From Methanolobus sp. (GTDB taxonomy: Archaea; Halobacteriota; Methanosarcinia; Methanosarcinales; Methanosarcinaceae): a DNA stretch of 47,912 nucleotides. How positions within the stretch are numbered: the first letter of the stretch is position 1; every line of letters begins with the position of its first letter. This document shows positions 22,285 through 33,551 of the stretch, in pieces. The translations under genes and the position numbers were made by a program. The notes beneath the pieces were generated by a model, which saw only the letters and a list, made by a program, of their open reading frames with translations, did no database searches and was not told the DNA's origin. The DNA lies in contig NZ_JADQBZ010000009.1 in assembly GCF_016278365.1 (NCBI RefSeq), positions 1-47,912 of the forward strand. Direction: 5' to 3'.

Positions 22285-22426
22285 GTTTATGCAATTAATA
22301 GGAGTATTTACGGGCATATTTATTTAAGTACGTTTTTATAAAATCCAATCGATGCATTAAAATATATTGCAGTTTTATAATACTCATAAAAGTATATTAT
22401 CCTACTTATATACAGAGGTAGTATCT

Positions 22427-23170
22427 ATGAGAATACCTACAGGAATAGAAGGATTTGATGATCTGGTACAGGGCGGTTTCCTGTCAGAAAGGGTCTATGT
22501 ACTGAGCGGCCCGCCCGGCAGCGGGAAAACCACATTTGGTGTACAGTTCCTTGCACATGGTGCTTCCAGGGGTGAGGTCGGGTTATACGCGACACTGCTT
22601 GAATGTCCGCAGAACATCATCAATGACATGTCCAATTATGCAATAAGCATTGCTCCTCTCATCAAAATGCAGAAACTTCTCTTTGCAGATCTTGGTCCAA
22701 GGATGGAGTACGGATACATGGACGAGATGAACGAATTTGTGACAACGGACTATAACATAGGCCGGGCATCCATTGAAAGTGAGGCTCCGTCTCCTTCCAT
22801 GGTCTTTAAGGAAATAGCTGCATACGTTTCAGAATATGACGTCAAGCGCCTTGTCATTGATTCAGTATCAGCCATAAGGTTCACTACAAACGATTTCTCC
22901 CTTCAGGAGAAGGAGATGAGCAGGTTCATACGCAACCTCAAGAAACTTGGCTGTACTACCGTACTGCTGTCTGAGATGACAGATCCGACTGCGTATTCCA
23001 CAGAGCAGTTTGCCGCGCATGGTGTCATTTTCATGCACAATTTCCTGTATGACAAGACAATGACACGTGCCATCCAGGTAATCAAGATGCGTGGTACAAG
23101 GCATGATTGCAACATGCGCTCTGTAAGTTTTACGGAAAAAGGCCTGAAGATCGAAGGTTATCTGGAATGA
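22427..23170 (+). CDS. RAD55/KaiC-like RecA-superfamily ATPase
   Basis: This 247-residue protein starts at ATG 22427 behind GAGGT. The Walker A is SGPPGSGKTTFGVQFL (about residues 27-42), Walker B RLVIDSVSAIRF, and the motif TTVLLSEMTD follows in the sensor position. It is a single-domain archaeal KaiC-like (KaiC/GvpD/RAD55) ATPase. Such proteins often pair with signalling or motility partners; the specific role is unknown. It is 9 nt upstream of an unrecognised coding region on the same strand, with which it is probably cotranscribed. Confidence 0.87.
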   Translation: MRIPTGIEGFDDLVQGGFLSERVYVLSGPPGSGKTTFGVQFLAHGASRGEVGLYATLLECPQNIINDMSNYAISIAPLIKMQKLLFADLGPRMEYGYMDEMNEFVTTDYNIGRASIESEAPSPSMVFKEIAAYVSEYDVKRLVIDSVSAIRFTTNDFSLQEKEMSRFIRNLKKLGCTTVLLSEMTDPTAYSTEQFAAHGVIFMHNFLYDKTMTRAIQVIKMRGTRHDCNMRSVSFTEKGLKIEGYLE

Positions 23171-23179
23171 TGGTGTCCT

Positions 23180-23695
23180 ATGGTCGCACTATTCAAAAAA
23201 GAAAAGCATAGTAAGGTAATATCCGAGGCCGACAGGGCTCATCTTGCTGAGGTTTCCCGGAAACTTGGGTTTGAAGTGGGTTACCACAGGCACTCGGAGA
23301 TAGGTTGGGTCCAGGAGCAGCTCACAAGGCTTTATGGATTTGCCGATGAATATGATCTCCGGGATTTTGCACGTGAGAATTATCTACGTGGGAAAGAAGA
23401 AGGATCAAAGGCAAAAGAAAGAGACACTAAATCAGGATTAGCGGGTTCTAGTGTGGACAGCAGGACCGAAGATACGCCCGTGGCCTTTTCGACGGATCGC
23501 CCGGCTACAAATGCACCTGCATCCTTTTCAAGAAGTGACTCCGGCTATAAGGTCCAGAGAACGACTATAGAAGCGTCCCCTGCTGCAATACAACAGCCCA
23601 CTATGGTGGACCTGCCGGAAAACGTGAAGCTCACAAAAGCAGTTGAAATGCCTTCTATGCTGGAAGGCTCCAAACACCTTCTGCCCAAAAAGTAG
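23180..23695 (+). CDS. Unrecognised protein cotranscribed with the RAD55-like ATPase
   Basis: This 171-residue protein has an N-terminal ordered part (about residues 12-75, ADRAHLAEVSRKLGFEVGYH and YDLRDFARENYLRGKEEG) that is helical and could be a small protein-binding domain. A Ser/Thr/Pro/Ala-rich disordered tail ends in HLLPKK. I do not recognise a family. The 9-nt spacing from the ATPase suggests a dedicated partner. Its stop lies one base from the stop of the convergent SelB-like gene, so there is no room for a terminator between them. Confidence 0.65.
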   Translation: MVALFKKEKHSKVISEADRAHLAEVSRKLGFEVGYHRHSEIGWVQEQLTRLYGFADEYDLRDFARENYLRGKEEGSKAKERDTKSGLAGSSVDSRTEDTPVAFSTDRPATNAPASFSRSDSGYKVQRTTIEASPAAIQQPTMVDLPENVKLTKAVEMPSMLEGSKHLLPKK

Positions 23696-23696
23696 T

Positions 23697-24734
23697 TTAC
23701 TGGCTATATCCGAAGGCAACGAATCTCTGCTTGCCATCAAGATTTGCCAGGACGAACCTGTCATTTTTGCTATATGCTAGTTCCTTTGTACCTGCCAGTT
23801 CCAACAGGTACTTTTTCCCGGGCTTTGCTTTTTCCACATTTTGTCCTTCGTATTTTATACTCTTCACTTTTAGCGGTGCCGATTGCAGGCCAACGTAGGC
23901 GTGAAGCATATCCCCTACTGCAAATTCCTTTGATAATTGTGAAAGGGTACACTCAATAATGAGGTCCTCCGAAACATTTTCCCCTGCGGACAGGATAAAA
24001 CCTCTGTCTATATCTTTTGACTGTACGTTCTTGAGGGCAAGACCGACCCTTGCACCAGCCGGAGCTGTCTTAACGTCAACATCATGCATCTGGATGGAGC
24101 GGATCTCCAGGTCCTTTTTGGCCGGATATGCAACCATCTTATCCTTGGCATGTATGGTTCCCTGGGAAACGACTCCCAGCACTACGCATCCTATTCCGGT
24201 GACATTGAAGGACTGGTCGATGACAACCCTTGCCGGAAGACTGTCCAGGTTCCTTTGCTCGGAGTCCACCATGTCTCCCATGGAGAAGATCAATTCCTTG
24301 AGCTCTTCCATGCCCTCAAAGCTGGTTGTGGAAACGGTATGGTATTGCCAGTTCTCAAGCGTTGTTCCTTTTGTTATTTTTTTGAGTTTTTCTTTCATTT
24401 CCTCAAGCGCCAGAGGATATGACAGATCTGCCTTGGTCTGGACAACAATGCCATGCTTATACCCTAAAAGGTCAAGGGAAATGATGCATTCGGCTGCAAG
24501 AGGGTCAAGTCCCTGCGGTGGTATACAAAGCAGAGCTATGTCTGAAAGGTTAAGTGCTGTCAGAAGGGATTTCACGGATGCCGGATACCCGGTAGCATCA
24601 ATGGTTGTGAGCACCCGGTCGTTCTTGGCATAGTCATACATCGTGATGTCAGTAACACTGCCCTTTTTGCCCAGTTTCCCGGCAAGAGTGGTCTTCCCGC
24701 TCTTCTCACTTCCAATGATGGCAATTTTAGTCAT
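23697..24734 (-). CDS. Archaeal SelB-like translation factor (aSelBL), EF-Tu superfamily
   Basis: This 345-residue protein has a GTPase-type domain (residues 1-170) and two beta-barrels (about 175-345: SFNVTGIGCVVLGVVSQG, KTAPAGARVGLALKN, LELAGTKELAYSKNDRFVL). The P-loop is GSEKSGKT (8-15) and the base-recognition motif TKAD (100-103). Switch II reads DATGY (46-50) instead of the DxPGH of active factors, so the catalytic His is missing. It lacks the SelB C-terminal domain that binds the selenocysteine element. This matches the archaeal SelB-like family, described as having an eroded GTPase site and once proposed to deliver pyrrolysyl-tRNA. It starts behind GGAGG, 55 nt after the RNA ligase. 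Confidence 0.82.
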   Translation of the reverse strand: MTKIAIIGSEKSGKTTLAGKLGKKGSVTDITMYDYAKNDRVLTTIDATGYPASVKSLLTALNLSDIALLCIPPQGLDPLAAECIISLDLLGYKHGIVVQTKADLSYPLALEEMKEKLKKITKGTTLENWQYHTVSTTSFEGMEELKELIFSMGDMVDSEQRNLDSLPARVVIDQSFNVTGIGCVVLGVVSQGTIHAKDKMVAYPAKKDLEIRSIQMHDVDVKTAPAGARVGLALKNVQSKDIDRGFILSAGENVSEDLIIECTLSQLSKEFAVGDMLHAYVGLQSAPLKVKSIKYEGQNVEKAKPGKKYLLELAGTKELAYSKNDRFVLANLDGKQRFVAFGYSQ

Positions 24735-24789
24735 GTGATAATCCTCCAGTATGGTCTTACGAATAAATGTTTATGCATATATTTCTTTT

Positions 24790-25947
24790 TCACGACCAGA
24801 GCTGGCCTTCGATTATACCAAGAGTCTTATCTGTCGTGCTCTTGTTCATCTTCCTGATCTTGACCACGTATTCATCCCCGATAGGCTCTGGTGAGCCGAA
24901 GATGACATCAAGACCAAGCCTTTCAAGATACATTCTGAATTTGCCGATAGTGCTCACTTCTCTCACTCTTATTTGCACATCCTCCCATAGGCGCTCGCCT
25001 TCCTGCACATGCATAATCGATTCTCTCATGGGCATGAGTATGCTTTCACCGAGCATGAGGCATCTTCTTTCAAGATCTTTCTTGCTATCGTTCCATTCCA
25101 CTGATTGGAAACCTTCTCTTACAACTCTTGCAAAGAGGTAATCCTTACCAGATTCGTTATAATACCTGAACCCATGGCGCAGATCCGCGCAATTAGTTTC
25201 TGAGGTTGTGTATTTCAATGGTTGCAATACCATTGCAGGATCTTTGATTATTACGCCTTCACGTTCCTTTTTACCCAGTTCCGGAATTATATCCCGTATC
25301 CCTTTAGCAGCTTCAGATACTGCGAACTCGCCAAGAAGTTCGACTTGGGTCAAACCATAATCCGCAGCAAGAGACCTTCTCTCATGAACTGGCAGGGGAA
25401 TCCCTTCCTTGGACCGGATGTCAAAAGCAAAGAACTCGAGCGAATCAACTTCATAAATATGCTTTGGTACATAGGGATTATCAGGTCCCACCATCTCACC
25501 GTAGACCACGTATTCAGGATGGTCTTTAAAAATATCATGTTCAAGCAGGTGGTTGGCACGCTCGCTGGAGTATGGGCAGACGTGGCCACTGCGAGTAAAA
25601 GCAATCAGTTCTCCTTTATGTTCGATGACACGGACATTGTAGCCATTCATCTTCTCTTCAACAACAACAGTATCAATACTCGCAAAATGGCTCTTGATGG
25701 CAGGAGCAAGCATAATGGCCCTTTTAATCTTCGGGAAGCCCTGCACGAACTCAAAGCCATTCCCTTTTTTTACCAGTACACTGCCTTCATCAATTTTTCC
25801 CACACTGCTGCTGAACCGGAAAAAATCCTCATATTCTCCCCACTCCTGCAGTAGCACCTTCTTTTCAAGAAGTTCTGAACATCTGGAAGGCGACAGGTCT
25901 AAAGCCTCTGCCGCCTCTTTTATATCCATTTCAGTCCCATTGTCCAT
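24790..25947 (-). CDS. ATP-dependent RNA ligase, archaeal Rnl3 type
   Basis: This 385-residue protein carries the nucleotidyltransferase lysine in EEKMNGYNVRV (Lys99, motif I) and further motifs EYVVYGEMVGPDNPY, EFFAFDI, EREGVIIKDP and the lysine-poor C-terminal helical part. The Lys-Met-Asn-Gly variant of KxDG fits the archaeal homodimeric RNA ligase family (Pab1020-like), which circularises or joins RNA with 5'-phosphate and 3'-OH ends. A 60-residue helical N-terminal region precedes the catalytic core. An alternative start is Met7. It is 20 nt downstream of a CBS gene and 55 nt upstream of the SelB-like gene. Confidence 0.88.
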   Translation of the reverse strand: MDNGTEMDIKEAAEALDLSPSRCSELLEKKVLLQEWGEYEDFFRFSSSVGKIDEGSVLVKKGNGFEFVQGFPKIKRAIMLAPAIKSHFASIDTVVVEEKMNGYNVRVIEHKGELIAFTRSGHVCPYSSERANHLLEHDIFKDHPEYVVYGEMVGPDNPYVPKHIYEVDSLEFFAFDIRSKEGIPLPVHERRSLAADYGLTQVELLGEFAVSEAAKGIRDIIPELGKKEREGVIIKDPAMVLQPLKYTTSETNCADLRHGFRYYNESGKDYLFARVVREGFQSVEWNDSKKDLERRCLMLGESILMPMRESIMHVQEGERLWEDVQIRVREVSTIGKFRMYLERLGLDVIFGSPEPIGDEYVVKIRKMNKSTTDKTLGIIEGQLWS

Positions 25948-25967
25948 ATATTTTCTTCAGGCACTGC

Positions 25968-26744
25968 TTACTGCGCAAGCCCGTTGACAATGTTTCTCCT
26001 TGTAACAAGCCCTACCATCTGCTCCTCAAGGTTTACGACTGGCACGCCGCCTATATTCTCATCAAGCATGAGTTTTGCGACATCCTTTACGGGAGTATTG
26101 GTATAGACGGTCTTTACACCCATTTTCATTATGTCTTCGACAATGAGGTTCTTGATACGTGCATCCTGCTTGTTTCCATCTACAATGTCACGGAAGGACC
26201 TCATTGCTTTAGCAATGTCCTTCTCTGTGACGATACCTACCAGTTTGTCATCATCTATCACAGGCACTCTTCCAATATCATTGTCAAGCATGAGACGCCT
26301 TATATGGCTCACACGGTCAGCAGGGTTTGCGACAATAGGGTTCTTTTGCATCACTTCAGCCACATACCCCTTCAGGTCGTTATTCCTGAGAAGTTCTGTC
26401 GGAGTAACCCAGCCAAGTACTTTTTCGTTCTCTACTACGATCATCACTCCGCCGTTGCGTGCCATGAGAGTGACGGCATCCGTTACCTTTGTATCGGCTA
26501 GCACTTTTACATAATTATCAGAGACTGCTGTTGCAACATGCAGGGCAGAGGCAGGCATGCTTCCCTTCTTGCGGGTCCCGAGCTCCTTTGTAATGTTCCT
26601 CATGGTGAGCACGCCCATGATCTTGTTATCATGTGTTACAAGAAGACGTCTTGTTCCTTTCTTCTCCATGATGTCAAGTGCATGAGAGATGGTGGCTGAC
26701 TTATCAATATTCACAGGTTCTGTCATTATGTCTTTTACTTCCAT
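25968..26744 (-). CDS. Four-motif CBS-domain protein
   Basis: This 258-residue protein consists of two Bateman modules: CBS repeats beginning [19 protein letters not shown], then a second near [18 protein letters not shown], a third in [17 protein letters not shown] and a fourth at [21 protein letters not shown] pairs bind adenine nucleotides (AMP, ATP, S-adenosylmethionine) and act as energy sensors. No enzyme domain is attached. It starts behind GAGGGAAG and is followed 20 nt later by the RNA ligase. The C-terminal NENIGG-like motif reads [12 protein letters not shown] and is echoed in the decayed copy at 27.8 kb. Confidence 0.9.
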
Positions 26745-26814
26745 AATTCTTCCCTCTATGTATCAGATTCTTTATGCTCTTACATTTTTAGCTTGTACAC
26801 TTCTGTTCCGGCGT

Positions 26815-27657
26815 CTATTGAGCGGCCCGAAGTATGTCTTTTCTGCCTATCATGCTCACGATCTCATCCCGATTAACAACAGGAAGGCTGATAACATGCT
26901 CATCCAGCATGACCTTTGCAGCATCTACCAACAGGTCATCGACAGCTACGCCGGATGGCAGCTCCATCATAATGTCTTCGGCTACAAGGGGAACATCTTT
27001 GATGTACCTGTATGTCTTCTGGCCGGCGGGAGTAGATCTGCGTGCCATTTTTATGCTCTTTGATTGCATATTCCCTTCATTATCTACCATGATGTTCAGT
27101 GCCACGCTGCTTGTAGTGATTATCCCGACTGCCTCGTTGGAATCATCAGTGACGATCACCCTGTTGACTTCGTACTTTTCCATTTCCTGGACAACATGGT
27201 TTATCGTGTGGTGCCTGTGCACAAAGATAATGTCATCGCCCATCACATCCGATACCCGCATTTTAATATCCGGTTGTTGGGATACATATTTCATGATGTC
27301 TGTACCCGTAACTATCCCCACAATATTATCCTTCACAACCACAAGTGAGTTGATGCCGTTCTCAAGCATCAGGTTGCTTGCCTGGGATACCGAAGCATCC
27401 GGGTAGATGGATATGGGAGCATCATTCATTACCATATTAACCGGGATCTTGTCTATCGGTCTTCTGCGCCACATAGGTTCTGCCTGTGCAAGCTTTCTGC
27501 TCAGATCGGTCTTGGTGACTATGCCAACCATCCTTCCGTCTTTGGCCACCACAAGGGTGCTTATCTTATGCTTCAGCATTAGGTTTCTTGCATGTGCCAC
27601 GTTCTCTTCCGGTGCTATAGTGAATACCGGTGAACTCATAATGTCTTCAACATTCAT
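26815..27657 (-). CDS. Four-motif CBS-domain protein
   Basis: This 280-residue protein starts at ATG 27657, 6 nt after GGAGG; in-frame upstream codons lack such a site. It has four CBS repeats: MNVEDIMSSPVFTIAPEENV, then NMVMNDAPISIYPDASV, VSDVMGDDIIFVHRHHTI and VAEDIMMELPSGVAVDDLL. A basic linker, SIKMARRSTPAGQKTYRYIK, lies before the last repeat. It is a likely adenine-nucleotide sensor, the first gene of a leftward run with the second CBS protein, the RNA ligase and the SelB-like factor. Confidence 0.9.
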   Translation of the reverse strand: MNVEDIMSSPVFTIAPEENVAHARNLMLKHKISTLVVAKDGRMVGIVTKTDLSRKLAQAEPMWRRRPIDKIPVNMVMNDAPISIYPDASVSQASNLMLENGINSLVVVKDNIVGIVTGTDIMKYVSQQPDIKMRVSDVMGDDIIFVHRHHTINHVVQEMEKYEVNRVIVTDDSNEAVGIITTSSVALNIMVDNEGNMQSKSIKMARRSTPAGQKTYRYIKDVPLVAEDIMMELPSGVAVDDLLVDAAKVMLDEHVISLPVVNRDEIVSMIGRKDILRAAQ

Positions 27658-27744
27658 GGTGTTCCTCCATCTAAATGTTTTGAATTCCTTATTCTTTCTC
27701 ATATCGCGCGCAGAAAACACCGACATTGGTTTTGAAGGTGCTTC

Positions 27745-27950
27745 TTATATCATTTTGTTCATGCACTGACAGGCAGATCCTTTCTCATCGATCCTGTTAA
27801 GGGCCATGACAGATCCTTCCCAGACAGTTTGATCCTGGGATTGTTTTTGATTTACAACAGTACGACCTCCAATATTCTCATTAAGTATGATCACACGAGA
27901 TTAGATAGCCACAACAGATTCAGTGCATCAGCAGTTGCCGGCATGCTTCT
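27745..27950 (-). pseudogene. Decayed CBS-domain gene fragment
   Basis: Within the gap between CBS genes the minus strand encodes VIILNENIGGRTVVN (about 27846-27890), close to [14 protein letters not shown] in the intact CBS protein at 25968-26744. In another frame just upstream, ATADALNLL resembles the start of a CBS repeat. Stops and a frame change separate the two pieces and no start is present. I read this as the remains of a third tandem CBS gene. The evidence is a short motif, so alignment would be needed to be sure. Confidence 0.5.
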
Positions 27951-28376
27951 CATCTTTGGGAATATAGTTAACTCTCCGGAGTTTCTTTATCTATTGCTTA
28001 AACCAGCATTATCAGGCAGTTTGGTATCTCATGTGCTTTCAAATGGCTAATTCCTTGAGCAGACTATCGGAAATTAATCAGATATCTGGCGTATAATATT
28101 GCACTGTCTTGTCAACGGCAATCCAGACATCAGATAGTTCCTGTGGTCCCGGGCCAGCGGCCTTTGCTAAAGAACACTTTTAGCATGCATTTGAATAACA
28201 ATGCCTGTCTAAGCATGTGCTTTTTGTAAGCATGAATAATACTGCTTTTCCTGTAAGGTCCGCAAAGCTACTTTCCATTGCTTTAAAAATCGATACATAT
28301 CTTTTTCCATCATATATCGGGACAGACATTCATTTCACCAGCTTTCTTGTGTCCTTATTTTCTGACCAGTATCAAA
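27951..28376. other. Intergenic stretch with possible gene debris
   Basis: No intact gene is visible. On the minus strand a 30-codon open piece around 28079-28170 encodes PQELSDVWIAVDKTV and ends in a stop without any start, which looks like another C-terminal gene fragment, though too short to identify. Together with the CBS remnant this suggests a decayed locus of about 600 bp. Confidence 0.35.
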
Positions 28377-28979
28377 CTAGTCATAGTAACCTTCTTCCTC
28401 ACTGCAGTCCTCGCACAAGTTGAGCCCGTTAACCTCTGTCAGGTTGTCAGCCATGGCCCCGCAACGCTGACAGATGCCACGTTCTACATCGGTCTCCCTC
28501 AGGAAATCTCCTTCACGGTGCAATTCGATCAGGTTCTGGAGGATAGTATTCAATCCCGGTGAGATTGCCATGATATCCCGGTATGTGATCATTCCCAGTA
28601 CTACGTTACCATCCATCACTGCGAGCCTGCGTATGTCTGATTTGACCATGAGCTCAGCTGCTTCGATTATTCCAGTAGAGGGTCTGATGGATATTATCGG
28701 GGACGACATTATGCTCCTGGCATCCATCTCTCCGGGCAGCCTGTTCCTTGCAACAGTCTTGGAAACAACATCCTTCTCTGTGATTATACCGATAATGTCT
28801 CCCTTATCCACCACAATAACACTGTCCGTATTACGGTCAGTCATCTCCCGGGCTACTTCAAGTACAGTAGTGTCAGCATCTATGACAAAAATATCCTTTG
28901 CCATCAATTCTTTGACAGACATCTCGTTTTGTATCTCTTTTATCGAGACGTCGGTTTCCAAATCCCTCTGCGTGTTCAA
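28377..28979 (-). CDS. CBS-pair protein with C-terminal zinc ribbon
   Basis: This 200-residue protein has two CBS repeats (about residues 20-75 and 85-145: MSVKELMAKDIFVIDAD and RSIMSSPIISIRPSTG) and then a zinc ribbon, CQRCG...CEDC (about 169-190). Zinc-ribbon CBS proteins are common in archaea and probably link nucleotide sensing to nucleic-acid or protein binding. The start I use is TTG 28979 behind a GGAAGG/GGTAAGGG site; an ATG at 28922 (MSVKEL) is an alternative that trims 19 residues but has only a weak site. A TATA-like box lies near 29060. Confidence 0.85.
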   Translation of the reverse strand: MNTQRDLETDVSIKEIQNEMSVKELMAKDIFVIDADTTVLEVAREMTDRNTDSVIVVDKGDIIGIITEKDVVSKTVARNRLPGEMDARSIMSSPIISIRPSTGIIEAAELMVKSDIRRLAVMDGNVVLGMITYRDIMAISPGLNTILQNLIELHREGDFLRETDVERGICQRCGAMADNLTEVNGLNLCEDCSEEEGYYD

Positions 28980-29259: not shown

Positions 29260-30405
29260 TCAAAGGACTATTATCCTTGTCCGGTTTCCTGCGCTGAGCT
29301 CGATCTCATCATTGAAACCTGATTTTGAGAAGGCATCGATTATCTCGATTTCTGTGTCAATATCAACCTCATCTATAAGGCCGGCATGCTCGCCCCAGAG
29401 TGCTATCCTTATCCTGCCGGTATCATCGGATACATAGATGTTTGAGACGCTGTTCTCGGTACCGTCATCGCGTGTGAAATCCCGGCGATCCCCTATCCCG
29501 GAGACAGATCCCTTGACAGAGTATGATTCTCCTGGTATTATGTCGGATATGGGTGTGAAGTTCTCTGAGTAGTCGACCTCCTTGTCTGTCTTCTTCAGAA
29601 TAGTACGGTTACCTACCTGCACTTCGACCTGCTGGCTGAAGTTATTCTCCCGGGCGTAAGCATTGATTATCTCAATGGAGTCGTTGATGTTTAATTCGGG
29701 GAGCAGGTCTGTTTTCTCGTCCCATAGGGTGACTCTGATCTTCCCGGTGTCGTCTCCTACAGTTATATTCGAGACCCTGCCTGTTGAGCCATCCTTGCGG
29801 TTAAAGGTCTTTATATCGGCTATATCAAGTACCCTGGCTTTGAGGTTAATGTCACCCATGCCATTCTTTATATCTGTGATCTTAGTAGAGGCAACAGAGG
29901 CTTCAATCTTTTCATCTGTCTCGCACAACACTCCATTGTTACCTATATTCACTTCCACACCGGAATATCCTTCTTTCACATAACCGCTTATCTGGAATGT
30001 CTGTCCGACCGTGATATCCCCTGTCTTCACAAGATCCGCCTTATCGTCCCATAGTGTCAGGCGTATGGAACCTGTTTCATCAGCAACGAGAAGATTTGCA
30101 ACTCTCCCGATGGTGCCGTCATTACGGTTGAACTCCTTGGCCGGGAATACGGACATGACCTTGGCAATGAGCCTGACATTTCCTGTGCCGGGAGTGATAT
30201 CTGCTACTTTTTGTACCTCATTTCCGGCGCCTTCTCCACGTGTGTCACCGGCTCCAAGGTCATGTGCGACAAGCATTGCTGCCGTTTTCGTATCACATAG
30301 TCCGCCCATCTGGTTCACTTTTTCCCCTACCCTTTCCAGGAAGTCCTCCTGGCTGATGGTCCCGCTAAGCTCTTGCTTTTTGTAAATTTCTATAATTTCA
30401 TCCAT
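29260..30405 (-). CDS. Replication protein A with three OB folds
   Basis: This 381-residue protein starts at ATG 30405 after CAGGT. A helical N-terminal segment (residues 1-55) precedes three tandem OB folds. Each contains the same block in variant form: GRVANLLVADETGSIRLTLW, GRVSNITVGDDTGKIRVTLW and SVSNIYVSDDTGRIRIALW. These are RPA-type single-stranded-DNA-binding domains. Unlike the two-OB, zinc-finger RPAs of methanosarcinas it has no cysteine finger, and unlike the four-OB RPA1 it has one fold fewer. It coats single-stranded DNA in replication and repair. A strong terminator follows. Confidence 0.88.
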   Translation of the reverse strand: MDEIIEIYKKQELSGTISQEDFLERVGEKVNQMGGLCDTKTAAMLVAHDLGAGDTRGEGAGNEVQKVADITPGTGNVRLIAKVMSVFPAKEFNRNDGTIGRVANLLVADETGSIRLTLWDDKADLVKTGDITVGQTFQISGYVKEGYSGVEVNIGNNGVLCETDEKIEASVASTKITDIKNGMGDINLKARVLDIADIKTFNRKDGSTGRVSNITVGDDTGKIRVTLWDEKTDLLPELNINDSIEIINAYARENNFSQQVEVQVGNRTILKKTDKEVDYSENFTPISDIIPGESYSVKGSVSGIGDRRDFTRDDGTENSVSNIYVSDDTGRIRIALWGEHAGLIDEVDIDTEIEIIDAFSKSGFNDEIELSAGNRTRIIVL

Positions 30406-30546
30406 GTTAATACCTGAAAGACTTAGATACACAATACATCTTAAATCATTTGTTCTACATTGAGGTTAACTGCTGGTTTAAGTGAACTGTGCATAGAAGT
30501 CATTTTAACAACTTATATTAATTATAAGATATATCTGACAGATATC

Positions 30547-31182
30547 ATGATCCGTAAATGTATACAGCATGGGTACTTCAGAGGTGATGTCTGCCCGGAA
30601 TGCGGCGAAGAAGGACGTTATGTGCTGGATGATGACCGGGAAGAGAGACTCGGAAGATTTATTTCCGGTGCATTGAGGCATTTCCCGGAAGACATTGGCC
30701 TGGAAATGGACCAGCAGGGCTGGGTTGATATGGATGTGCTTTGTGACATTATGATGAAGCGCTACAAATGGGGCACCATGGAGCGCCTTGTGTCTCTGGT
30801 AGAGTCCGACGTGAAAGGCCGCTATGAGATAGACGGGTCTTTTATCAGGGCGCGCTATGGCCATTCAGTAGAGATCGATCTTATATCGGATTATCCTGAG
30901 AATGAACTTCCGTACCTCTACTATGGTGTAAGCCAGGAAGAAGCGGACATGCTTCTTGAGAACGGGATCACTCCTATAAGGCAGTGTTATGTACATCTGA
31001 GCAGGTCACTGGAAAAAGCAATGCAGGCTGCTTCTATTCATACTGACAACCCTGTGATATTTGAAATTGATGCTACATCGGCACAGGATGACGGAATCGA
31101 TATTGTGGTTGTTAATGAGGATATTGTGCTTGCAAAGAACATCCCTTCAGAGTACATAAGCATCGCTGATGCTCAGGAATGA
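30547..31182 (+). CDS. kptA: RNA 2'-phosphotransferase (Tpt1/KptA)
   Basis: This 211-residue protein starts at ATG 30547. The N-terminus is a zinc-binding knuckle (Cys5, His8, Cys16, Cys19). The Tpt1 catalytic set is visible: Arg44-His45 in ALRHFP, Arg101/103 in IRARYGHS, and Arg145 in PIRQCYVHLS. The usual LYHGT reads LYYGVS (Tyr126 in place of His), a variant I believe occurs in archaeal homologues. The enzyme moves a 2'-phosphate from RNA to NAD+, as in tRNA splicing or RNA repair. It is convergent with rtcA, stop to stop with no spacer. Confidence 0.9.
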   Translation: MIRKCIQHGYFRGDVCPECGEEGRYVLDDDREERLGRFISGALRHFPEDIGLEMDQQGWVDMDVLCDIMMKRYKWGTMERLVSLVESDVKGRYEIDGSFIRARYGHSVEIDLISDYPENELPYLYYGVSQEEADMLLENGITPIRQCYVHLSRSLEKAMQAASIHTDNPVIFEIDATSAQDDGIDIVVVNEDIVLAKNIPSEYISIADAQE

Positions 31183-32178
31183 TCATTGTACGTAAATTTC
31201 GAAGATCTTATCCCTTCTTTTTATGCCGAACCTGACATCAAGGAATTGCTCAGTGACCCATATATTGGTTGTTGTGTGATCTGACAGGGCAACAGTTGTG
31301 AAAGAGCCGCTGCCTGCAAGTCCCATGTAAGGTATTAGCTGGTCTGCAAGATGCTGGTCAACAGCCGCATCTGACTCCAGGCATGTTATCATTTCCTCTG
31401 CAGCCCTGGCTCCTACCTTCTCTGCAGGCAACCCTTTTTTTCCAATGGAGACTGCACCCTTGAAGCCGGACCACAGGGTTATCCCGCTTCCAGTGGAAAC
31501 ATATTGAGAAACTTCTGTCCGGATATCACACCCATATCCCTTTTTATCCATAATCTCTTTTGCAGATGCAGCCTGTCTCTGCGCTACATGTTCGGGCAGC
31601 CTGGAGCTATGGGAGATGCCTGAAACATCCATGTCCTCTCTGACGAAATCATATCCCCTAAGCCTTGATGGCTCGATTGTCAGCTCTATAAGCCCTCCTC
31701 CCCTGGGGTAGTATCCCCTGCTGATAGTTTTCAGTTGTGAGATATAGCCCATTCTTGACAGGGCCTTGAAAGTCACATTCTCAAGATAGTCTATAGTAGG
31801 GGACCATATGACATCAGTCCCTCCCTTAATCCGGAGCCTGACGGTACCGCTTGAATAAGCGGCAGCAGGCATGATACTCTGGATAAGCAATGGAATGCTC
31901 CCGGCTGTACCAATGTCTATTTCGGTACTTAACCCCTTTATTTCCAGTGGAGTGAATGTGATCTCAGTTGAACCAGGGAAGAGGCCTCCTACCTTTGCAT
32001 CACATAAGAGGGCGGCCGCTTCTATCGAAGTGAGATGCTGCATCTTAAGCCCGGGCTGGGGCCTTGCTTTGCGGATATTGGTAACAGTTACTTCTTCCCC
32101 TATCACTGCCGAGAGGGATACAGCAGTCCGCAGTATCTGTCCTCCTCCCTCTCCGTATGAGCCGTCGATGATTATCAT
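31183..32178 (-). CDS. rtcA: RNA 3'-terminal phosphate cyclase
   Basis: This 331-residue protein starts at ATG 32178, which overlaps the stop of the upstream flavoprotein gene (ATGA). The N-terminal IIIDGSYGEGGGQILRTAV is diagnostic of RtcA, and the catalytic His lies in DQHLADQLIPYM. It converts RNA 3'-phosphates to 2',3'-cyclic phosphates using ATP. Its direct neighbour kptA and the nearby RNA ligase also work on RNA ends. The coupling to a CoA-disulfide-reductase-like gene is unusual. Confidence 0.94.
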   Translation of the reverse strand: MIIIDGSYGEGGGQILRTAVSLSAVIGEEVTVTNIRKARPQPGLKMQHLTSIEAAALLCDAKVGGLFPGSTEITFTPLEIKGLSTEIDIGTAGSIPLLIQSIMPAAAYSSGTVRLRIKGGTDVIWSPTIDYLENVTFKALSRMGYISQLKTISRGYYPRGGGLIELTIEPSRLRGYDFVREDMDVSGISHSSRLPEHVAQRQAASAKEIMDKKGYGCDIRTEVSQYVSTGSGITLWSGFKGAVSIGKKGLPAEKVGARAAEEMITCLESDAAVDQHLADQLIPYMGLAGSGSFTTVALSDHTTTNIWVTEQFLDVRFGIKRRDKIFEIYVQ

Positions 32179-33551
32179 TTCCGGACCTTTGACATTTTCC
32201 GGAGTGCACCTTTTGCTGCATAGGTGAGCGGATCTACAAGTGTTCCAAGTGGTGGTGTGTAGCAAGTTTCCATGTTAAGTATTTCGTCCACTGTAGTTCT
32301 TTTGCTGATAGCAAGGGAGAATCCGTCAATCCTCTCTTTGACACCCTTGCCGCCGATAGCCTGTGCTCCTACGAGAATCCTGTTCCTGAAAAGAAGTTTG
32401 ATGTACAGTTGGGTTGAGCCGGGATAGTATCCTGCACGAGTGGTGCCCGTAGCAAGGCCACTTACTACGTCTATTCCATTAAGGCGAGCTATCCGGGTGG
32501 TAATTCCCACTGTACCTACTTCCAGTTCACCGATGAGAGCCACCCATGGGCTGATCACCGGACCGAAGCTGCTCTGCTCATCTATCAGGTTATCCCGTAT
32601 CACTCCTGCCATTCTTCTTGCTGTGCTTGCAAGCTGGCTTAACATAGGTCTGCCTGTTATGAGATCCTGAAGTTGTACGCACTCTCCCCCACAGTAGATA
32701 TCATGATCAAAAGTTCCGTTAGTTAGCTTTACCTGCAGGTCGTCGTTGACAATAATCCCTCCTGTGGGGCCTATTGCTATCCCAGCATCAGCGGCAAGCT
32801 TTGTTTCAGGATTTACCCCTGCGGATATTATGACCACGTCAGCCGGAAATTCCTTTTCTCCAATGGTCACGGATCTGACGCTACCTTCCCCATTGAGAGC
32901 TTGCGGGGTATAGTCGGTAAGTATCTGCACTCCCAGAGACTCAAGGTGTTCCCTGACTATATCCGCCATATCCGGATCGATATTGTGTGACAGCAGGGAA
33001 CTGCTCCGGTTGATGAGGAGTGTATTCAATCCTCTTTTAGAACATGCCACAGCAAGTTCAGCTCCTATTGCCCCTCCTCCTATTATTGCTACACTGGATG
33101 CTCTCTGAAGGGCTTTCTCAAGCCTCATGCCGTCTTCAAGGGTACGTACAGTGAATACATTTTCCAGTAAAGCTCCACTTTTGAGCTTTTCAGGGATGGA
33201 CGGAGTGCTGCCTGTGGCAATCACAAGCTTGTCAAATCGATATTCTTTTCCTTCAGCAAGGACCGTGCGGGATGCAAGATCAATAGATTCGACCACGGTG
33301 CCTATCCGGAGGTCTATTCCTGCTTCCTCGAAGAACTCTTTGTTCCTTTGAAGAAGGGAATTGAAACCGCTGATCTCCTTTGCTATTACAAATGGTATGC
33401 CGCACTGGCTATAGGATGCATGGGAGTCCGAAGAGAATACGAGGACATCATGGTCACTATGGCGTTTTACACTTGTTGCCACAGCCAGTCCCACTGCCCC
33501 TCCACCTATAATTATAAGTTTTTTCCTGTCAGCTGGATCTCTGTCATTCAT
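32175..33551 (-). CDS. CoA-disulfide reductase / NADH oxidase-like flavoprotein
   Basis: This 458-residue pyridine-nucleotide-disulfide oxidoreductase has an FAD Rossmann motif IIGGGAVGLAVA, the single redox-active Cys50 in SYSQCGIPF, LVIATGSTPSIP, the NAD-binding AIIGGGAIGAELAVA and the FAD-binding DIYCGGECVQL. A single Cys in place of CxxxxC identifies the CoADR/Nox/persulfide-reductase group. The substrate could be CoA disulfide, polysulfide, persulfide or O2. The ATG lies about 25 nt after a TATA box, so the message is probably leaderless. It is translationally coupled to rtcA. Confidence 0.88.
   Translation of the reverse strand: MNDRDPADRKKLIIIGGGAVGLAVATSVKRHSDHDVLVFSSDSHASYSQCGIPFVIAKEISGFNSLLQRNKEFFEEAGIDLRIGTVVESIDLASRTVLAEGKEYRFDKLVIATGSTPSIPEKLKSGALLENVFTVRTLEDGMRLEKALQRASSVAIIGGGAIGAELAVACSKRGLNTLLINRSSSLLSHNIDPDMADIVREHLESLGVQILTDYTPQALNGEGSVRSVTIGEKEFPADVVIISAGVNPETKLAADAGIAIGPTGGIIVNDDLQVKLTNGTFDHDIYCGGECVQLQDLITGRPMLSQLASTARRMAGVIRDNLIDEQSSFGPVISPWVALIGELEVGTVGITTRIARLNGIDVVSGLATGTTRAGYYPGSTQLYIKLLFRNRILVGAQAIGGKGVKERIDGFSLAISKRTTVDEILNMETCYTPPLGTLVDPLTYAAKGALRKMSKVRK

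Follow-up and report, generated by a model that had tools for sequence, protein, structure and literature searches.

Orthologues of ribosome-bound CBS proteins and an Rnl3 RNA ligase in a conserved archaeal gene array, a possible ribosome-hibernation locus

We analyzed a stretch of DNA of 47,912 nucleotides (nt) from Methanolobus sp. (contig NZ_JADQBZ010000009.1, hereafter the window), in which four minus-strand genes at positions 23697–27657 encode two CBS-domain proteins, an ATP-dependent RNA ligase of the Rnl3 family, and aSelBL, a relative of the translation factor SelB. We consider it somewhat more probable than its opposite (about 0.55) that these four genes make up the core of a locus for ribosome hibernation in archaea, one that includes a dedicated RNA-sealing ligase. 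This reading is based on the identities of the genes, the orthology of the CBS proteins to the ribosome-bound proteins SriC and SriD, a gene order found across the phylum, and the intact active-site motifs of the ligase. From these we infer what the ligase may act on and when, whether it contacts Sri proteins or the ribosome, and what aSelBL might contribute.

The products of the two CBS genes, at 25968–26744 and 26815–27657, each have four CBS stretches as detected by Pfam (PF00571, 163 and 151 bits, respectively). The product of 25968–26744 matches chains 9zni_7 and 9zng_7 of the Protein Data Bank (PDB) with an E-value of about 3e-104 (8e-26 for the next-best different protein), and the product of 26815–27657 matches chain 9zni_6 with an E-value of 9.4e-99 (7e-17 for the next-best different protein). 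According to their titles, dated 2026, these PDB entries contain the Methanosarcina acetivorans 70S ribosome in complex with SriD (9zng) or with SriC and SriD (9zni), while a further entry has SriA and SriB (9znf). A predicted model of the 25968–26744 product (mean predicted local distance difference test score, 86.7) superimposes closely on 9zng_7 (Z 35.3; root-mean-square deviation 1.4 over 257 residues; 62% identity) and has the fold of the AMPK-gamma adenylate sensors. Related arrays contain two more four-CBS genes, which match 9znf_5 and 9znf_4. A tree of 81 CBS proteins resolves into five well-supported clades, one for each array position (n1 to n5), with the genes of the window at 25968–26744 and 26815–27657 falling into clades n1 and n2. 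We therefore refer to n1 as SriD and n2 as SriC, and to n3 and n4 as SriB and SriA, with the assignment of n3 and n4 between SriB and SriA following gene order.

There is strong support for identifying the CBS genes with SriC and SriD, which belong to a CBS-module class that has been implicated in ribosome hibernation. By analogy to these orthologues, as described by the PDB titles, the SriC and SriD of the window would bind the 70S ribosome and may silence translation; they are likewise expected to bind AMP or ATP. The original prediction had taken the two genes for putative adenine-nucleotide sensors, but they are not generic sensors, being orthologues of ribosome-bound proteins. Because of this orthology, the ribosome, and not tRNA ends, is the best-supported center of the locus.

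CBS modules occur on idle archaeal ribosomes in other systems as well, namely Dri of Pyrobaculum calidifontis and HibA of Pyrococcus abyssi. Dri is reportedly a fusion of two CBS modules. No such two-module fusion is present among the array proteins of the window (Pfam), and unlike HibA, which carries an HPF/RaiA domain, the three array proteins show CBS domains only. The CBS module of HibA binds AMP, ADP, and ATP, of which AMP is the best ligand, and dormant M. acetivorans ribosomes contained CM-1 and CM-4, two standalone CBS-module proteins (PMC13324472). The closest known counterparts of the array are SriA to SriD of M. acetivorans (9znf, 9zng, and 9zni) and the CM-1 to CM-6 families (PMC13324472), orthologous four-CBS proteins with the same gene order, of which SriC and SriD correspond to the two CBS genes of the run; in the genome of the window SriA and SriB lie at another locus.

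We surveyed 247 genomes, all of the phylum of the window, and compared gene order within the family Methanosarcinaceae (the window plus 40 retrieved loci, covering 14 genera) and at 40 sampled Rnl3 loci outside it. At all 35 Methanosarcinaceae loci with an intact ligase (window included), array CBS genes precede the ligase and the next conserved gene after it is aSelBL, all on one strand; a few carry inserted DNA between the genes. Among the 80 named loci, where the contig was long enough, the arrangement agreed in Methanolobus, Methanococcoides, Methanomethylovorans, Methanohalophilus, Methanohalobium, Methanosalsum, and Methanosarcina, and it was also seen in the named loci of Methanosarcinaceae of the anaerobic methanotroph (ANME) type. 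Outside the family, the ligase directly follows the Sri array on the same strand at 33 of the 40 loci, which belong to eight families. At these loci, the median distance from the last Sri gene to Rnl3 is −4 nt (a 4-nt overlap); 29 of the 33 distances do not exceed 20 nt, and the two genes overlap at 18 loci. This array-adjacent order and near-zero spacing were kept in the eight families despite turnover of the flanking genes. The conservation beyond its own genome that the original prediction had called for thus exists, for the entire arrangement in the 35 family loci and for the CBS-ligase part in eight further families.

Recurrence within the family and in eight further families indicates that the four-gene arrangement is not due to chance. 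Taking families as units and a chance rate of 2% for each, the observed 9 of 13 gives P of about 3e-13, an estimate that ignores common descent and so speaks against pure chance only. The order n5-n4-n3-n2-n1-ligase (that is, n5-SriA-SriB-SriC-SriD-Rnl3) is, as judged from the one-clade-per-position CBS tree, probably ancestral to the sampled families. One family (f6) keeps only n5 and n3 of the array positions, and the window keeps n5, SriC, and SriD followed by Rnl3. The window's n5 gene (28377–28979, minus strand), the first gene of the array, encodes two CBS domains (Pfam, 93.6 bits, two stretches) and a C-terminal cysteine-rich tail, and its clade in the CBS tree is represented in eight other families. 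Candidate CBS-ligase gene fusions were discarded, as the long frames (e.g., 640 amino acids in G268) overlap a Sri gene and the CBS match is in a separate frame. In Methanosarcina and near genera, the gene inserted between SriD and Rnl3 is AIM24-like and lies on the opposite strand (L036, L046–L048, L057, L064, and others).

The missing SriA and SriB genes were found paired at a separate locus of the window's genome (G000:C4:276600-278481; L208), with no ligase there. SriC and SriD thus remained with the ligase and aSelBL when SriA and SriB relocated. This split supports a ribosome-centered locus, because the same pairs are seen on the ribosome (9znf and 9zni). A further point in its favor is that two reduced genomes of one genus, which lost Rnl3, still have SriC-SriD close to aSelBL. 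A tblastn search of the gap at 27658–28376 for remnants of SriA and SriB yielded nothing beyond short matches, the better of which lay at the edge that reaches SriC.

The Rnl3 ligase (24790–25947, minus strand; 385 amino acids) scores 374 bits against TIGR01209 (cut-off, 136.9), 102 bits against RNA_ligase, and 125 bits against Lig_C, the C-terminal domain of Pab1020, and it matches MthRnl (5d1o) with an E-value of 3.7e-80. Its motifs I (EEKMNG, with Lys99), IV (EGVIIK), and V (LKYTTS, with Lys245) are intact. In the alignment with 5d1o, K99 and K245 correspond to K97 and K246 of MthRnl, and E97, E98, K99, G102, E230, G231, and K245 are invariant across 34 homologues. The enzyme is predicted to join 5′-phosphate and 3′-hydroxyl RNA ends. 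MthRnl and Pab1020 belong to the same family as the window's Rnl3 and share its active-site motifs and C-terminal domain, but they carry no link to hibernation in the papers covered, unlike the role proposed here. MthRnl is purified mostly in self-adenylated form, and its sealing step (step 3) is inhibited by 50 μM ATP (PMC3514331), which fits, by analogy and short of proof, a role for Rnl3 at low energy. At one locus (L045, from the complete genome G006 of genus g6), Rnl3 has a single mid-gene frameshift, due to either sequencing error or decay.

RtcB joins 2′,3′-cyclic phosphate and 5′-hydroxyl ends, while Rnl3 joins 5′-phosphate and 3′-hydroxyl ends. The Rnl3 protein has no match to RtcB (PF01139) in the Pfam scan, and RtcB is encoded elsewhere in the window's genome (G000:C3:132600-133904). 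We considered tRNA splicing or rRNA circularization by Rnl3 and rejected both, as RtcB is present and published work attributes both processes to EndA and RtcB (PMC12918454). A polynucleotide kinase partner was likewise dropped, the genome yielding just a sub-threshold CLP1_P match.

The last gene of the run encodes aSelBL of the EF-Pyl type (23697–24734, minus strand; 345 amino acids), which matches PDB entry 3wnb, the M. mazei EF-Pyl with GMPPNP, end to end (phmmer, E 1.9e-121; Z 45.3, 55% identity). Its annotation as SelB-like and that of its neighbor as an RNA ligase were correct in the original prediction, in agreement with Pfam, NCBIfam, and the 3wnb match. A profile scan detected EF-Tu domain 2 and part of the G domain; the protein has SelB-like domains I–III, altered G motifs, and no SelB C-terminal domain. 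Its P-loop (GSEKSGKT) is intact in the window, the K being R in many relatives, D46-ATG keeps DxxG, and G4 is TKAD, whereas the catalytic His of DxPGH is Tyr50. Since the closest structure, 3wnb, holds GMPPNP, nucleotide binding is likely kept despite the His-to-Tyr change. For a loss of GTPase function, as in the earlier description of this factor as GTPase-defective, these motifs and the nucleotide in 3wnb give no clear support.

Because aSelBL is linked to the module in a single family, we give it less weight than the other genes and regard the link as weak, that of a late, family-specific neighbor. The proposed survey of the Rnl3/aSelBL neighborhood, made here within the phylum of the window, bore out a wide CBS-ligase association, which aSelBL joins only in Methanosarcinaceae. 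Across the 247 genomes, 44 have both the ligase and aSelBL, 55 the ligase only, and 55 aSelBL only; these counts show that the two genes are not mutually dependent, and we discarded co-occurrence as evidence. At the loci from ANME-2, Argoarchaeum, Ethanoperedens, and Methanoperedens, no ligase adjoins aSelBL. In Methanosarcinales, a ligase upstream of aSelBL, often after a CBS-domain gene, was noted previously and its significance called uncertain (Atkinson 2011, PMC3037878). The set of genes was thus not wholly undescribed, as had been supposed, but no explanation was given in that study, which calls the ligase a DNA ligase, proposes no function, and predates the evidence of ribosome binding by CBS proteins. 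The earlier proposal of a joint RNA task under energy control gains from the wide conservation of the module and comes close to our reading, with the ribosome as the best-supported center. A task on tRNA ends is unsupported, given that the CBS genes are orthologous to ribosome-bound Sri proteins, that aSelBL is a late arrival, and that RtcB is encoded elsewhere in the genome.

We propose that SriC and SriD would sit on idle 70S ribosomes at low energy and that Rnl3, the start of which overlaps or nearly touches the last Sri stop in most lineages, would be produced together with them. The ligase could then seal 5′-phosphate/3′-hydroxyl RNA breaks in dormancy or upon recovery, acting on rRNA of stored ribosomes or on fragments of tRNA and mRNA. 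aSelBL, with its ribosome- and tRNA-binding surfaces apparently kept, would have been added in Methanosarcinaceae, possibly acting on those idle ribosomes as well. A bolder version, which we regard as speculative, has hibernating ribosomes carry or recruit their own ligase, such that Rnl3 at low ATP would seal rRNA (circular 23S in Methanosarcina) or bound tRNA, and aSelBL would be an extra ribosome-bound factor in Methanosarcinaceae. Hibernation is seen as a shielding of active sites from nucleases, to which a conserved ligase in the operon would add repair. Enzymes of the Rnl3 family serve as laboratory reagents, and we know of no settled cellular role for the family; if the proposal is true, the family gains a concrete, checkable cellular job. 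The locus also offers a starting point for experiments on aSelBL, a relative of translation factors that has lacked an assigned function since 2011.

We consider the link of the ligase to the Sri module to be of moderate strength. Several findings weigh against a dedicated hibernation ligase. At 7 of the 40 loci outside Methanosarcinaceae, no array occurs at the ligase; these are divergent, low-scoring Rnl3 genes from four families. A SriD-type gene is present in 100 of the 247 genomes, half of them (50) with the ligase and half (50) without, so that Rnl3 of this type nearly always adjoins an array, whereas the array also occurs ligase-free. An opposite-strand gene parts the array from the ligase by more than 1 kb in Methanosarcina-like genera. 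The aSelBL link is absent outside Methanosarcinaceae, where 11 genomes have both the ligase and aSelBL, unlinked wherever both sites could be compared. Orthologues of the ligase and aSelBL were not among the solved ribosome complexes found by a sequence search of structures. A literature search found no paper tying the ligase to hibernation, with the Dri and Sri papers, which may report a ligase neighbor, outside its coverage, and none using the name SriD for a ribosome-bound CBS protein. The word "ligase" is absent from the HibA paper (PMC13324472), the Sri paper again not being covered.

The ligase might instead owe its position to shared regulation or an inherited neighborhood only, and work in general RNA metabolism, for instance on box C/D or circular RNA. 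The many lineages that hold Sri arrays without Rnl3 and the separation in Methanosarcina-like genera favor this explanation, as does a reduced genus (g10; two genomes, L055 and L056) that lost Rnl3 while SriC-SriD stayed near aSelBL. We nevertheless regard it as rather unlikely, since order and near-zero spacing persisted in eight outside families while the flanks turned over, and the ligase was kept with SriC and SriD upon the move of SriA and SriB.

That the CBS proteins themselves control the ligase, with adenylate bound to SriC and SriD switching Rnl3 on or off and ribosome binding as a separate activity, appears improbable. The ligase does lie immediately 3′ of the last CBS gene, often with overlapping start and stop codons, and the SriC/SriD-type fold is that of the AMPK-gamma adenylate sensor. 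However, the CBS gene that touches the ligase varies, being n1 in most families and n3 in f6, which leaves no fixed pair, and it is the ribosome that these CBS proteins are known to bind. A pyrrolysine (Pyl) unit, with aSelBL as the Pyl-tRNA elongation factor and the ligase as a Pyl-dependent enzyme, has very little probability. In its favor, the M. mazei orthologue was deposited as EF-Pyl and a TAG is conserved in frame in the Rnl3 gene of Methanococcoides. Against it, aSelBL occurs more widely than the use of Pyl does (PMC3037878), Rnl3 of the window lacks an in-frame TAG, and pylS is on another contig of the window's genome.

The TAG codon in Methanococcoides occurs at Rnl3 residue 63/64 in 9 of 10 genomes examined in detail, M. 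alaskense (L097) having CAG at this position; the loci noted with the TAG are L038, L039, L040, L003, L005, L006, L014, L092, and L094–L096. It spans two Methanococcoides clades between which synonymous sites are near saturation (synonymous divergence of about 2), the Rnl3 sequence on both sides of it evolves under constraint, and pylS was found in each of the six Methanococcoides genomes checked for it. The codon thus probably encodes a Pyl residue. A neutral origin is possible, because the position lies upstream of motif I and is Tyr or Val in relatives.

The coordinates confirm the four minus-strand genes of the run and gaps between them of exactly 70, 20, and 55 nt, as originally given. 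The SriC frame is readable from 27726, but a GGAGG sequence directly upstream of 27657 supports a start at that position; aSelBL also has GGAGG directly upstream of its start, and the 55-nt gap between Rnl3 and aSelBL has an AT-rich, TATA-like stretch. The run is longer than first described, as it is preceded by the third CBS gene, n5, and by a gene for a replication factor A (RPA)-type single-strand-binding protein (29260–30432, minus strand; NF011288, 656 bits). The RPA-type gene is the first of the conserved family-level row, and it precedes the array at most of the loci from Methanosarcinaceae.

Two genes for RNA-end enzymes lie further upstream in the window: a KptA/Tpt1 RNA 2′-phosphotransferase (30550–31182, plus strand; PF01885, 104 bits), divergent from the RPA gene, and the RNA 3′-terminal phosphate cyclase RtcA (31183–32265, minus strand; PF01137, 255 bits). 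RPA, KptA, and RtcA are located just upstream of the array in most non-Methanosarcina genera of the family, KptA being at the same site in most of these and RtcA in Methanolobus, Methanococcoides, and Methanomethylovorans. Genes of the RtcA/RtcB/KptA type of RNA-end processing thus adjoin the array in several genera (RtcA and KptA) or occur in the window's genome (RtcB), but the end chemistry of RtcB differs from that of Rnl3 and membership in a shared pathway is putative. In family f4 (L201 and L202), RtcA is beside SriD and convergent to it.

The scan of the window for structured RNAs detected a tRNA-Lys as the sole known RNA. A non-coding stretch 3′ of n5 (28278–28370, minus strand), of uncertain membership in the locus, was recognized by blastn, alignment, and a pattern survey. 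It is conserved at ~80% identity over 94 nt, in single copy, in 13 of 14 Methanolobus genomes (blastn), and was not found in other genera of Methanosarcinaceae; the rest of the gap around it is mostly unconserved in more distant species. A possible 8-bp stem within it is invariant and so lacks support from covariation. The stretch is possibly a small RNA or a leader element. On the other side of the run, a KaiC-like ATPase and a small gene of no known family (22418–23695, plus strand) converge on aSelBL with stop codons 1 nt apart, a placement kept in many non-Methanosarcina genera.

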